Positions 32,406-36,831 of a stretch of 64,000 bases of DNA are shown here, piece after piece; positions within the stretch are counted from its first letter, which is position 1; each line of letters begins with the position of its first letter. The position numbers were made by a program, and so were the translations under genes. The stretch is from Clostridia bacterium (GTDB lineage Bacteria; Bacillota; Peptococcia; DRI-13; SM3-B62), in NCBI GenBank assembly GCA_018433675.1, contig JAHDQS010000005.1, positions 62,001 through 126,000 of the forward strand, in the 5' to 3' direction. The notes under the pieces are model-generated. The model was not told where the DNA came from. It saw nothing but the letters and a program-made list of their open reading frames with translations, and made no database searches.

Positions 32406-33452
32406 CTATCCTTCAGGAATCAGAATGACCTTACAGGCCTCCCCGTTTTCAATCAGGTTAAAGCCTTCGGCAAAGTCGGCAAGAGAAATGATATGGGTAA
32501 TAACTTCTCTGACTTTCAATACCTCATTTTCCAGCATGTTTTCCATCCTTGTCCAGGTTTCAAACATTTTCCGCCCATGAATACCCTTGATCGTAGCCTC
32601 CTTGAAAATAACGTCTGGCCCTAAATCTATCTCCATTAAGTTTGAAGGAAGCCCTATCAGAGCTGCCTGTCCTCCTTTTCTTAAATAGCGAAAGCCCTCA
32701 CGAATAGCCGACGTATTCCCCGAAGCATCAATAATACTATCAGCACCTACACCTTTGGTTATCTTCATAATAGCTTCCGCAACCTTCTCCTTTTGGGGGT
32801 TGCAAACGTGATCTGCCCCCATTTCCAAAGCCTTCTCCAGCCTTTGAGGAATAACATCAACAGCTGTAATATACGCTGCCCCTAAGGCCTTAGCCGAGGC
32901 AACCGCCAATAGTCCGATAGGTCCCGCACCGATAACCACCACATTTTCTCCGCCGACCTGTAATTCCAAACAAGACCTTAATGATGTCCCTAAGGGCTCC
33001 AGAATAGCCCCTACCTCCGGCGGGATACTCTCCGGAATTCTCTTTGCACATATTTCCGGTATTTTTGCGTATTCAGCAAAACATCCGTCTGTATTCACAC
33101 CATAAATAACCATGTTCCCGCAGATATGCTGAAGCCCATTTTTACACTGATAGCATGTTCCGCAGGGAATGTGGGTCTCACCGACAACATAATCACCGCA
33201 TTTTACAGTGCATACCCCTTCACCCACCTCCACCACTTCTCCGGAAAACTCGTGCCCCATGATCATTGGTGTCTTAACCCCTGCCTGCTTAGCCCAGCTG
33301 TTCCATTGATAGACATGCAGGTCGGTGCCGCATAGTGCCGCTGCCTTGACCTTCACCAGCACCTCTCCCGCCCCGGGGCGGGGAACAGCCACTCTTAAAA
33401 ACGAAGCTCCTTTTCCCGCTTCTTTCTTTACTACAGCCCACATTTCTTTCAT
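32406..33452 (-). CDS. Zinc-dependent alcohol/threonine dehydrogenase (MDR family)
   Basis: 348 residues. Catalytic zinc ligands C41 and H67-E68 (CGTDLH, MGHEFSGEV), structural zinc C97, C100, C103 and C111 (CGTCYQCKNGLQHIC), and NAD-binding GAGPIGLLAVASAKALGA near 173. The CGTDLHVYxW start and length resemble L-threonine 3-dehydrogenase, but sugar-acid or polyol dehydrogenases look the same at this level. It is divergent from the TRAP transporter operon, which makes an enzyme acting on the imported substrate an attractive guess. GAGGAGGG is about ten bases before the ATG. Confidence 0.85.
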   Translation of the reverse strand: MKEMWAVVKKEAGKGASFLRVAVPRPGAGEVLVKVKAAALCGTDLHVYQWNSWAKQAGVKTPMIMGHEFSGEVVEVGEGVCTVKCGDYVVGETHIPCGTCYQCKNGLQHICGNMVIYGVNTDGCFAEYAKIPEICAKRIPESIPPEVGAILEPLGTSLRSCLELQVGGENVVVIGAGPIGLLAVASAKALGAAYITAVDVIPQRLEKALEMGADHVCNPQKEKVAEAIMKITKGVGADSIIDASGNTSAIREGFRYLRKGGQAALIGLPSNLMEIDLGPDVIFKEATIKGIHGRKMFETWTRMENMLENEVLKVREVITHIISLADFAEGFNLIENGEACKVILIPEG

Positions 33453-33616: not shown

Positions 33617-33645
33617 TTGACATCACAGGATTATTAAGATAGAAT
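33617..33645 (+). promoter_or_regulatory. Strong sigma-A promoter of the TRAP operon leader
   Basis: TTGACA (33617-33622), 17-base spacer, TAGAAT (33640-33645). Predicted RNA start is near 33652, which gives a leader of about 238 bases before dctP. Confidence 0.75.
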
Positions 33646-33651
33646 TTTTTT

Positions 33652-33889
33652 AATAGTTGATACTCCAGGAATTATGTATCACCTCAAAACGGCTTCTTTT
33701 TTAAAGTAGTGCCGTAGTATGGTAGGAAGATGTAGGGTAGAAAGAAACAAGTAAAACGGTAGGAAGGTTAGGACGGTAGGAATAAGCTATATGGCGTATA
33801 TTTGATTGTACAGCCATAGCTTACAAACTCCTATTAGGGGTTTTTTTTATTTACCTAAAGGAGCAAAACAACAAAGGAGCTGATTTGAA
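33652..33889 (+). promoter_or_regulatory. Structured 5' leader with attenuator (candidate riboswitch or protein-controlled leader)
   Basis: Between the promoter and dctP the RNA has, in order: a hairpin ACGGC (33689-33693)/GCCGT (33711-33715); a purine-rich block with GGTAGGA at 33721, 33758 and 33775 and TTAGGA at 33768; a hairpin AAGCTAT..GGC (33784-33795) / GCC..ATAGCTT (33813-33822); and an intrinsic terminator (33825-33848). The GGTAGGA copies can pair with TCCTATT (33829-33835) in the terminator, which would act as antiterminator. It matches no riboswitch class that I know. Confidence 0.65.
33825..33848 (+). terminator. Intrinsic terminator inside the TRAP leader
   Basis: AAACTCC (33825-33831) pairs with GGGGTTT (33837-33843) with one G-T pair, loop TATTA, followed by an uninterrupted T-run to 33848. 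It stands 41 bases before the dctP start, so it must be read through for expression. Confidence 0.75.
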
Positions 33890-34936
33890 ATGAAAGGTCA
33901 AAAATTACTAACGTTTATTATGACAGTATTACTACTCTTCACGGTAGGCGGATGCACAGGAACAGAGCAAGGCGAGCAGGATGTTCAGGATGTTATTGAA
34001 TTAAGTGTTGCCCATTTCTTTCCCGCTACCCATCCCGCTGATACCGACTTGTTGCAACCGTGGGCCCAGGCTATAGAAGAAGCCACCGACGGTAAAGTGC
34101 AAATAACCATTTTCCCCGGGGAAGGCTTGCTGCCCGCCGCGCAAATCTATGACGGAGTAGTTGACGGTATAGCCGATATAGGGCTTTCCTGTTTTTCATA
34201 TACCCGCGGTCGCTTCCCGGTACTCGAAGCCTTTGAACTACCCGGAATCATCTATCCTAATTCCGAAATTGCCAGCAAAGTGGCTTGGGAAGGAATTCAA
34301 AGCCTTAATCCCAAAGAAATACAGGATACAAAACTCATGATGGTTTTAACAACCGGACCCGGAGATCTTTACACCAAAACTCCCGTTCGTACCCTTGAGG
34401 ATCTCCAAGGAATGGAAATACGCGCCACAGGCTTGAGCGCCAAAACCCTGCAAGCTTTGGGAGCAGTACCGGTTGCTATGCCTCAATCAGAAGCTTATGA
34501 GTCACTGTCAAAGGGTATCGTTAAAGGGAACCTCGGTCCCGTTGAAGTTCTGAAGGGTTGGAGACAAGCGGAGGTCACCGAATGCCTCACAAGGACACCT
34601 TTCCTTTATAACACCTTGTTTTTCATCACCATGAACCTGGATAAGTGGAATTCCTTAGATTCCGAAACGCAGCAAATCATTGAGGAAATTAACAAAAACT
34701 TCTTCGAAGAAGTAGCAGCCGGTTTATGGGACAAACAAAACGAGGATGCAATGAAGTTCGCTATTGATGAAGAAGGAATGACTGAAATAGTACTTAGCCC
34801 CGAAGAAAGTAATAAGTGGATTGGGCTTGTGGAAGGAATCCAGGATGAATTTGTTGCCGAAATGAATAAGCAAGGTTTTGCCGGACAAGAGATTTTGGAT
34901 ACTGTCAAAGCACTGGCCGACAAACATAACCAATAA
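33890..34936 (+). CDS. dctP: TRAP transporter substrate-binding lipoprotein, DctP family
   Basis: 348 residues. Lipoprotein signal with lipobox LFTVGGC, acylated at C22. Binds a carboxylate-containing substrate outside the membrane and hands it to DctQM. The family's carboxylate-binding arginine region is LQGMEIRATGLSAKTLQALG, followed by PQSEAYESLSKGIVKG. The substrate is not predictable from this. AAAGGAGC lies upstream of the ATG. First gene of a plus-strand three-gene operon controlled by the leader at 33652-33889. Confidence 0.93.
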   Translation: MKGQKLLTFIMTVLLLFTVGGCTGTEQGEQDVQDVIELSVAHFFPATHPADTDLLQPWAQAIEEATDGKVQITIFPGEGLLPAAQIYDGVVDGIADIGLSCFSYTRGRFPVLEAFELPGIIYPNSEIASKVAWEGIQSLNPKEIQDTKLMMVLTTGPGDLYTKTPVRTLEDLQGMEIRATGLSAKTLQALGAVPVAMPQSEAYESLSKGIVKGNLGPVEVLKGWRQAEVTECLTRTPFLYNTLFFITMNLDKWNSLDSETQQIIEEINKNFFEEVAAGLWDKQNEDAMKFAIDEEGMTEIVLSPEESNKWIGLVEGIQDEFVAEMNKQGFAGQEILDTVKALADKHNQ

Positions 34937-34972: not shown

Positions 34973-35524
34973 ATGAAGAGAATCTTTGCAGCTACAAATA
35001 AACTTAGCCATGAATTCGATAGAATCGCAGGTTTCTGTATAGTGGGCGTTATGGTTCTCGTCGTTTCCAATATCCTCCTGCGTAACATTTTTAAGAAGCC
35101 TATCCTAGGAACCTACGAGCTCGTCGGTTATCTGACGGCTTTGGCGGTCAGCTTCTCCCTTGCTCAATGTGCTGTAAAAAACGGCCACATCGCCCTGGAT
35201 TATATTATTAATAAGTTTCCGAAAAAGGTTCGTATGAGCGCAGGTATGTTGGTCACAGCTCTCTCCTTTACTTTTTGGAGCCTTGCGACCTGGCATTTCA
35301 CCGGATACGGCCTACGTTTGCTGGCAAGTGGGGAGGTCACTCCCACAGCCCAGTTGCCTGTATACCCTTTTGTATTTCTCATCGCTTTAGGCTTTGCCGG
35401 GCTATGTTTTGTCTCATTCTCACAGACTCTTGAACGCAGCAAAATTTTTCTTTCAGGTATTGTCATAGCAAAACCGGCTTCTCGCCCTGTACCTGTTGAA
35501 TATGCAAGGAAGGCGGTAAGATGA
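34973..35524 (+). CDS. dctQ: TRAP transporter small membrane subunit, DctQ family
   Basis: 183 residues with four membrane segments (about 19-37, 52-72, 90-110, 133-153). The conserved N-terminal pattern AGFCIVGVMVLVVSNILLRN and the LGTYELVGYLTALAVSFSLA block are typical. It partners DctM in sodium-driven import. GAAAGGAGTT precedes the ATG. Overlaps dctM by four bases. Confidence 0.92.
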   Translation: MKRIFAATNKLSHEFDRIAGFCIVGVMVLVVSNILLRNIFKKPILGTYELVGYLTALAVSFSLAQCAVKNGHIALDYIINKFPKKVRMSAGMLVTALSFTFWSLATWHFTGYGLRLLASGEVTPTAQLPVYPFVFLIALGFAGLCFVSFSQTLERSKIFLSGIVIAKPASRPVPVEYARKAVR

Positions 35525-36831
35525 GTACCACTGTAATCGGTATTATCGGCATCGCGATTTTCTTTTCCTTGCTGGCTTTAGGAATGCCTATTGCTTACGC
35601 CATGGCACTGGTGGGCTTTGCCGGATTTAGCTTTATAACTTCATTACCCGTAGGGTTTAGTATGGTATCGAAAGAAATTCTCAATACCCTTACTTCCTAC
35701 AGCTTAAGCGTTATTGCTATGTTTGTCTGGATGGGATTTCTGGCCTATTATTCCGGAATAGGCACACGACTATATATCTTGGCCTACCGTCTCTTCGGGC
35801 ATCTGCCCGGTGGCCTGGCGGTAGCCACGCAGCTCGCTTGTGCTGTTTTCGGGGCAATCTGCGGGTCCAATACCGCTACTGCGGCTACCATGGGAGCCAT
35901 TGCCCTGCCGGAGATGAAAAAGTACCGCTATGACATGTCACTGGCCACGGCCAGTATTGCTGCAGGCGGAGCGCTGGGAGTATTAATACCTCCCAGCGTC
36001 ATATTTATTGTCTATGGTGTAGCCACCGAGCAATCCGTCGGCAAGCTTTTTATGGCTGGGATTATTCCCGGCATACTCTTGATGCTGCTTTATATCCTTA
36101 CCATCATTCTTTTGATTCGGAAAAACCCGGCTCTTGGCCCTGCCGGTTCACGCAGTGAATTGAAAGAGAAAATCCAAGCCCTGCAAGGCGGAATCTTAGA
36201 AGTATTGATAGTTTTCTCCCTTTCCATGGGAGGACTGTTTATCGGCTGGTTTACGCCTACCGAGGCCGGAGCAGTCGGAGCTGCCGGCGTACTCATAGTA
36301 GCCCTGCTGGGAAAACGCATCGACAAAGAGGGGCTTAAAAAATCCCTGATCGAAACCACCCGCACTACGGCTATGATTATGCTCATGATCGTCGGCGCCA
36401 TGATATTTGGTCGCTTCATCGCCATCAGTAAGCTTCCTTTTGTCATGGCCGGTTGGGTGGCTAATCTGGATTTGCCCGCATTTGCCATCATGGGCATCAT
36501 ATTGCTGATCTATCTGATCATGGGGTGTTTCATCGATGCCCTGGCTTTGATCTTACTCACAGTTCCCATCTTTTACCCGGTAGTAGTCAACACCCTCGGG
36601 TACGATCCCATTTGGTTCGGAGTAATAGTCGTTTTGGTGGTTGCCATGGGTGTGATAACTCCCCCGGTGGGAATGAACGTTTACATTATCAAAGGGGTTG
36701 CGCCCGATGTACCTTTAGAAACCATTTTTAAAGGTGTCTGGCCTTTTTTAGGGGCTGTCATCGTCTGCATCGCAATTTTAATTGCCTTCCCCGAGATTGT
36801 TACGTTTTTGCCAAACATTATTATGGACTAA
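35521..36831 (+). CDS. dctM: TRAP transporter large membrane subunit, DctM family
   Basis: 436 residues with about twelve membrane segments. Carries the family hallmark FGAICGSNTATAATMGAIALPEM near 117 and GGALGVLIPPSVIFIVYG near 149, plus the repeat copy near 380 (GVITPPVGMNVYIIKG). It is the transport channel of the TRAP system. The ATGA overlap with dctQ indicates coupled translation. The operon ends at the terminator 36830-36861. Confidence 0.95.
   Translation: MSTTVIGIIGIAIFFSLLALGMPIAYAMALVGFAGFSFITSLPVGFSMVSKEILNTLTSYSLSVIAMFVWMGFLAYYSGIGTRLYILAYRLFGHLPGGLAVATQLACAVFGAICGSNTATAATMGAIALPEMKKYRYDMSLATASIAAGGALGVLIPPSVIFIVYGVATEQSVGKLFMAGIIPGILLMLLYILTIILLIRKNPALGPAGSRSELKEKIQALQGGILEVLIVFSLSMGGLFIGWFTPTEAGAVGAAGVLIVALLGKRIDKEGLKKSLIETTRTTAMIMLMIVGAMIFGRFIAISKLPFVMAGWVANLDLPAFAIMGIILLIYLIMGCFIDALALILLTVPIFYPVVVNTLGYDPIWFGVIVVLVVAMGVITPPVGMNVYIIKGVAPDVPLETIFKGVWPFLGAVIVCIAILIAFPEIVTFLPNIIMD

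Follow-up and report, generated by a model that had tools for sequence, protein, structure and literature searches.

Two systems that read NAG triplets in RNA are among the closest described counterparts of the leader presented here. HutP is known for one role, the control of histidine use in Bacillus, where the NAG triplets of the hut RNA are separated by spacers of four nucleotides (N4); in B. subtilis HutP, the residues H73 and H77 of the HxxxH motif hold the metal and the histidine. The binding repeats of histidine-responsive HutP are located within the terminator hairpin itself (PMC8934654), and in the MtrB attenuator the NAG triplets overlap the antiterminator, so that the binding of the protein leads to the formation of the terminator (PMC7430163).

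The leader that precedes the dctP gene of the window, i.e. of the whole stretch of 64,000 nucleotides of DNA that was analysed, shares features with both systems and differs from both. With the hut antiterminator RNA of B. subtilis it has in common the protein fold of the candidate reader (Pfam family PF09021) and two NAG clusters placed before or at a terminator; the differences concern the spacer, which is N5 here, the protein, as the HutP that is linked to aromatic genes (HutP-Aro) lacks HxxxH, the location of the NAG clusters, which lie upstream of the terminators and not within them, the downstream genes, which serve aromatic biosynthesis and uptake instead of being hut genes, and the polarity, which is predicted to be opposite to that of Bacillus HutP, an antiterminator. 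With the MtrB attenuator of trp operons, the leaders share NAG triplets, the overlap with the antiterminator and aromatic genes; an MtrB site, however, consists of approximately eleven G/UAG repeats that are 2-3 nt apart, whereas the triplets here occur in threes, 8-9 nt apart, so that the leaders do not meet this definition, nor does every site-bearing genome encode MtrB (24 of the 102 lack it). A classical MtrB site, GAGCCTAGATGAGTTGAGCCGAGAAGAGTTTAGTTTAG, does occur in the trpE leader of the source genome (L145, contig G000:C9), ahead of a terminator; MtrB thus already has a distinct code in this genome, where two NAG-reading systems coexist. Our search of the open-access literature for an earlier description of such a leader found nothing relevant, and we know of no such description.

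The leader is located upstream of a plus-strand TRAP transporter operon: dctP (33890..34936), the solute-binding protein (Pfam DctP, 148 bits), dctQ (34973..35524), the small permease subunit (Pfam DctQ), and dctM (35521..36831), the large permease subunit (Pfam DctM, NCBIfam TIGR00786). The gene on its other side (32406-33452) is on the minus strand, i.e. divergent, as the initial annotation had stated, and the elements that were reported there are in place: a sigma-A-type promoter, TTGACA-17-TAGAAT (33617..33645, plus strand), which matches 11 of 12 consensus positions and is the best match between 33000 and 37500; two flanking hairpins, from the inverted repeats 33655-33663/33676-33684 and 33783-33790/33816-33823; and an intrinsic terminator (33825..33848), with the hairpin AAACTCCTATTAGGGGTTT and a T-run, separated by 41 nt from the dctP ATG at 33890. 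The transcript is inferred to start near 33652. All elements of the leader lie on the plus strand, beginning with the 5' hairpin (33655..33684), for which no conservation was seen across the other leaders, and a second 5' hairpin, CGGC...GCCG, identified by folding (33690..33714); these are followed by an upstream NAG cluster (33714..33740, with TAG at 33715, 33723, 33733 and 33738) and by the core NAG cluster GGTAGGAAGGTTAGGACGGTAGG (33758..33780, with TAG at 33760, 33769 and 33777), which contains the columns that are invariant across leaders and which we predict to be a protein-binding site, without binding data. The P1 hairpin (33783..33823), a perfect 8-bp inverted repeat whose arms covary across dctP leaders, joins the core to the terminator, the 5' arm and loop of which carry TCCTATT (33829-33835). 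The three reported GGTAGGA copies are present, at 33721, 33758 and 33775, and each can pair with TCCTATT as an antiterminator, through five Watson-Crick and two G-U pairs; the repeats are nevertheless better described as two clusters of NAG triplets that follow one another at 8-9 nt. Taken by itself, the leader folds with an unremarkable minimum free energy (z -0.64), so that structure alone is no proof and the reality of the leader rests on comparison.

Comparative evidence supports the earlier proposal of an undescribed attenuator leader, probably for an RNA-binding protein, and the conservation upstream of related TRAP operons, on which that proposal had been made to depend, is found. A scan of the species genomes gave 62 loci that encode DctP relatives; when their upstream regions were read, approximately 45 shared one design, i.e. 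the core GTAGNANRGTNAGNAYGGTAGGNA, then a hairpin, then AACTCCTACGGGAG-T(n), in Desulfotomaculum-like, Pelotomaculum, Syntrophomonas and clostridial genomes. Forty of these dctP-leader cores align, with eight invariant columns. BLAST with the window segment, which involves no training, matches three other families, in the genomes G003 (6.7e-8), G059 (1.1e-7) and G006 (2e-7); outside the genus, direct DNA BLAST recovered the core alone. Covariation maintains the P1 hairpin in the transporter-type leaders: in the 40 dctP leaders, the mean energy of the duplex is -9.5 kcal/mol, compared to -6.8 (sd 0.36) when the 3' arms are swapped among leaders, and none of 500 swaps was equally strong. In five clostridial dctP leaders (L074, L077, L079, L080 and L081), the only NAG cluster immediately follows the -10 box, which places the start of the RNA almost at the binding site; the genomes of these five have no MtrB.

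No known riboswitch class had been recognised in the leader, and none emerged from Rfam: the window has no match at the gathering threshold, only chance-level sRNA matches at E<=10, and the Rfam covariance models give no T-box match for the window leader. T-box leaders do stand at the same place in three dctP orthologs (L060:281-659, L066:1932-2274 and L071:1922-2208), where they replace the NAG leader; all three have the Tyr specifier UAC, the position of which was taken from the covariance alignment and PMC2494555, and two of the three genomes lack HutP.

Beyond dctP, the core GTAGNAYGGTAGNAYGGTAGG (TAG-N5-TAG-N5-TAG), together with an intrinsic terminator, recurs before several aromatic operons, and further copies were found when 60 relatives were searched with R1, a sequence model built on the core. 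The second copy of the source genome is located upstream of tyrA-aroA-aroC-aroB (G000:C3:7641-7673); in other genomes, copies lie ahead of aroF (DAHP synthase), another DAHP synthase, aroH-aroF-tyrA-aroA and aroF-pheA-tyrA, as well as aroH, pheA/tyrA operons, trpXYZ-type ABC transporters and hutP-aroH. Gene identities were partly assigned by eye from translations; for dctP/Q/M, aroH, tyrA and HutP, Pfam or NCBIfam matches confirm them. The non-dctP leaders have a cleaner core of the form TAG-N5-TAG-N5-TAG, and an alignment of 58 mixed leaders has invariant columns in the core. Three weak matches were judged false, two of them (L156, L163) in the ribosome-binding regions of acyl-CoA ligase genes and one (L186) within a coding sequence; one leader with core and terminator (L187, G036:C124) lies upstream of a gene read by eye as LarA-like, i.e. 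of the lactate racemase family. A general model (R2) was applied at the level of the phylum, as the class offers 46 genomes only; of 398 genomes, each at least 90% complete, 102 (about a quarter) have sites by this model. Its E-value for the window site is partly circular, with a 97% identical leader in the training set. The core stands before genes of aromatic biosynthesis and uptake, and the leader therefore belongs to an aromatic amino-acid regulon; that it is a conserved attenuator of this regulon we regard as almost certain. The initial annotation was right in its reading of the leader, but missed the occurrence of the same leader at aromatic biosynthesis operons, the HutP-like arrangement of the repeats in two NAG clusters, and the HutP-family gene that is linked to aroH and to the sites.

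The arrangement in two clusters is itself recurrent. Within 85 nt upstream of the core, a YAG-N5-YAG pair occurs in 36 of 67 leaders, compared to 5.5 expected from shuffles, at a median gap of 30 nt between this second cluster and the core; the window leader has both clusters, while in the leaders outside the 36 a second cluster is either degenerate or not clearly present. In the same region of the 67 leaders, no spacing is enriched nearly as strongly as N5; N4 shows no enrichment, N2 is mildly enriched (13 vs 5.7), and N0 (20) and some of the spacings N7-N11 are also raised.

The gene neighbourhood points to a candidate reader. Two HutP-family genes are present in the source genome, one of them directly before aroH (chorismate mutase), and in most of 12 relatives hutP is likewise followed by aroH and next by trpE, by aroF with or without trpF, or by cmk. 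Four loci show the order hutP, leader with core and terminator, trpX-type ABC operon. At another locus (L219, G316:C57, ~2262), where aroH directly follows hutP, a NAG core and the predicted aroH start codon overlap, which suggests a translational version of the control. Across the phylum sample, where 262 of 398 genomes have HutP homologs (both subtypes counted), HutP is present in 97 of the 102 site-bearing genomes and in 165 of the 296 without sites (odds ratio 15), in tests that ignore relatedness; all 24 site-bearing genomes that are MtrB-negative carry HutP, and in at least 31 genomes a site and hutP share a strand and are no more than 10 kb apart. The sites thus co-occur and co-localise with the HutP-fold subfamily that is encoded with aroH. 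The five exceptions are G020, G264, G338, G357 and G361, four of which are marginal site calls; in the leader-bearing genome G443, the sole homolog is non-GxxxG.

The aroH-linked protein meets the Pfam HutP family PF09021 over its full length, at 160 bits (cut-off 25). Sequence searches of the PDB with phmmer and a profile found no HutP for it, and its profile comparison with B. subtilis HutP is weak; after these weak comparisons, its membership of the HutP family was settled by the fold search, where all ten PDB matches of its AlphaFold2 model (pLDDT 84) with E<=0.001 are HutP structures, including the RNA-bound 1wmq, at TM-scores of up to 0.74. No NCBIfam family covers the aro-linked copy, we found nothing on HutP with aromatic genes in the open-access literature, and we know of no role assigned to the aro-linked proteins, which are the majority of those examined. 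In an alignment to the B. subtilis HutP sequence, which was checked against 1vea, GxxxG occurs in all aro-linked sequences examined, and HxxxH only in B. subtilis HutP and in the second copies. Given this replacement of HxxxH by GxxxG, the aro-linked branch probably senses something other than histidine, as far as sequence motifs can tell. The second homolog of the source genome (L105:4959-5411, minus strand; G000:C34:52970) keeps HxxxH and is probably a HutP of the histidine type; it adjoins predicted genes for a glutaconate CoA-transferase and an acyl-CoA decarboxylase.

We propose, as a likely reading in the absence of binding or expression data, that the leader is a protein-dependent attenuator of the aromatic regulon, in which the binding of HutP-Aro leads to termination. 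HutP-Aro that carries its signal, an aromatic amino acid or something related, would bind the NAG clusters, the last triplet of which would overlap the strand that pairs with the terminator arm (GGTAGGA with TCCTATT/TCCTAC); the bound protein would remove the antiterminator, the terminator would form, and transcription would stop when aromatic amino acids are plentiful. When they are scarce, the protein would be off the RNA, the antiterminator would form, and read-through would let the TRAP transporter import aromatic amino acids. Termination on binding suits the biosynthetic genes.

The alternative antitermination that had been claimed from the window alone is borne out in part. The complementarity between the 3' end of the core and the terminator arm exceeds the expectation from composition, both in dctP leaders (-6.7 vs -4.4, sd 0.26) and in the others (-8.8 vs -7.5, sd 0.41), a few leaders having been excluded after automatic terminator detection failed; when partners are swapped, the pairing has modest support outside dctP (p 0.0145) and none within the dctP leaders, where swapping does not weaken it. 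Pairing at the last triplet is poor in L042, L045 and the L073-L081 group. When the window leader is folded, partial transcripts that end at 33836-33842 pair the GGTAGGA at 33721 with TCCTATT at a probability of 0.65-0.89, and when 33753-33783 is blocked, the terminator reaches a probability of 0.61 instead of 0.22 at 33844, and of 0.99 instead of 0.74 at 33860. This rise favours binding that leads to termination, a polarity towards which we lean with no more than modest confidence, as the argument is a thermodynamic one. The opposite polarity, with HutP-Aro as an antiterminator that occupies the RNA at low levels of aromatic amino acids or on the accumulation of a pathway precursor, remains possible and seems to us unlikely: Bacillus HutP is an antiterminator (PMC7430163; PMC8934654) and the ligand of HutP-Aro is unknown, but in the leaders that were read the NAG clusters lie upstream of the terminator and not inside it, they overlap the antiterminator strand, and the site at L219 covers the start region of aroH, where binding would be expected to repress.

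The identity of the reader can also be questioned. Tryptophan-activated MtrB (the TRAP protein) could read the leaders, which would then form a second and less strict class of its sites: it is encoded in the source genome and in 78 of the 102 site-bearing genomes, it targets NAG triplets, the regulon concerns aromatic amino acids, and even among HutP-positive genomes the sites remain somewhat associated with MtrB (p 6e-4). We consider this improbable in view of the trpE leader of the source genome, whose classical GAGNN/TAGNN site has a 2-nt spacing and not the N5 for which the present leaders are enriched, of the 24 site-bearing genomes without MtrB, which include single-contig ones, and of the 17 leader-bearing dctP genomes, 7 of which lack MtrB while 16 have a GxxxG HutP. 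Least credible, to the point of being nearly dismissed, is a riboswitch that needs no protein and whose repeated core binds an aromatic metabolite directly; a conserved core with an expression platform and an aromatic regulon would fit it, but the core, a short triplet repeat that looks unpaired, varies in its middle and lacks a conserved internal helix, it has no Rfam class, and its presence tracks HutP. That a HutP-family protein reads the leader is the explanation that we prefer and hold to be highly likely, although it is inferred and no binding data exist.

For the signal of HutP-Aro, an aromatic amino acid is hinted at by the content of the regulon, by the Tyr-specifier T-boxes before the three dctP orthologs and by the similarity of DctP to proteins of known structure. 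The PDB chains closest to DctP are 7nr2, 4pgn, 4n6d and 4nap, with 4pgp also similar, and 4pgn, 4pgp and 4nap are binders of indole compounds or tryptophan; the predicted ligand of DctP is an aromatic amino acid or a related compound. A search of the open-access literature on TRAP transporter ligands found nothing.

Taken broadly, we consider it probable that a large and undescribed branch of HutP serves in the phylum as a general sensor of aromatic amino acids or pathway intermediates, with the TAG-N5-TAG-N5-TAG code switching biosynthesis, uptake and its own gene, beside the separate MtrB/trp system. If true, this would explain the aro-linked HutP protein, would give the phylum a regulator of the entry step of the shikimate pathway and would point to an aromatic compound as the substrate of an orphan TRAP transporter; one RNA-binding fold would have been re-tuned from histidine to another signal.
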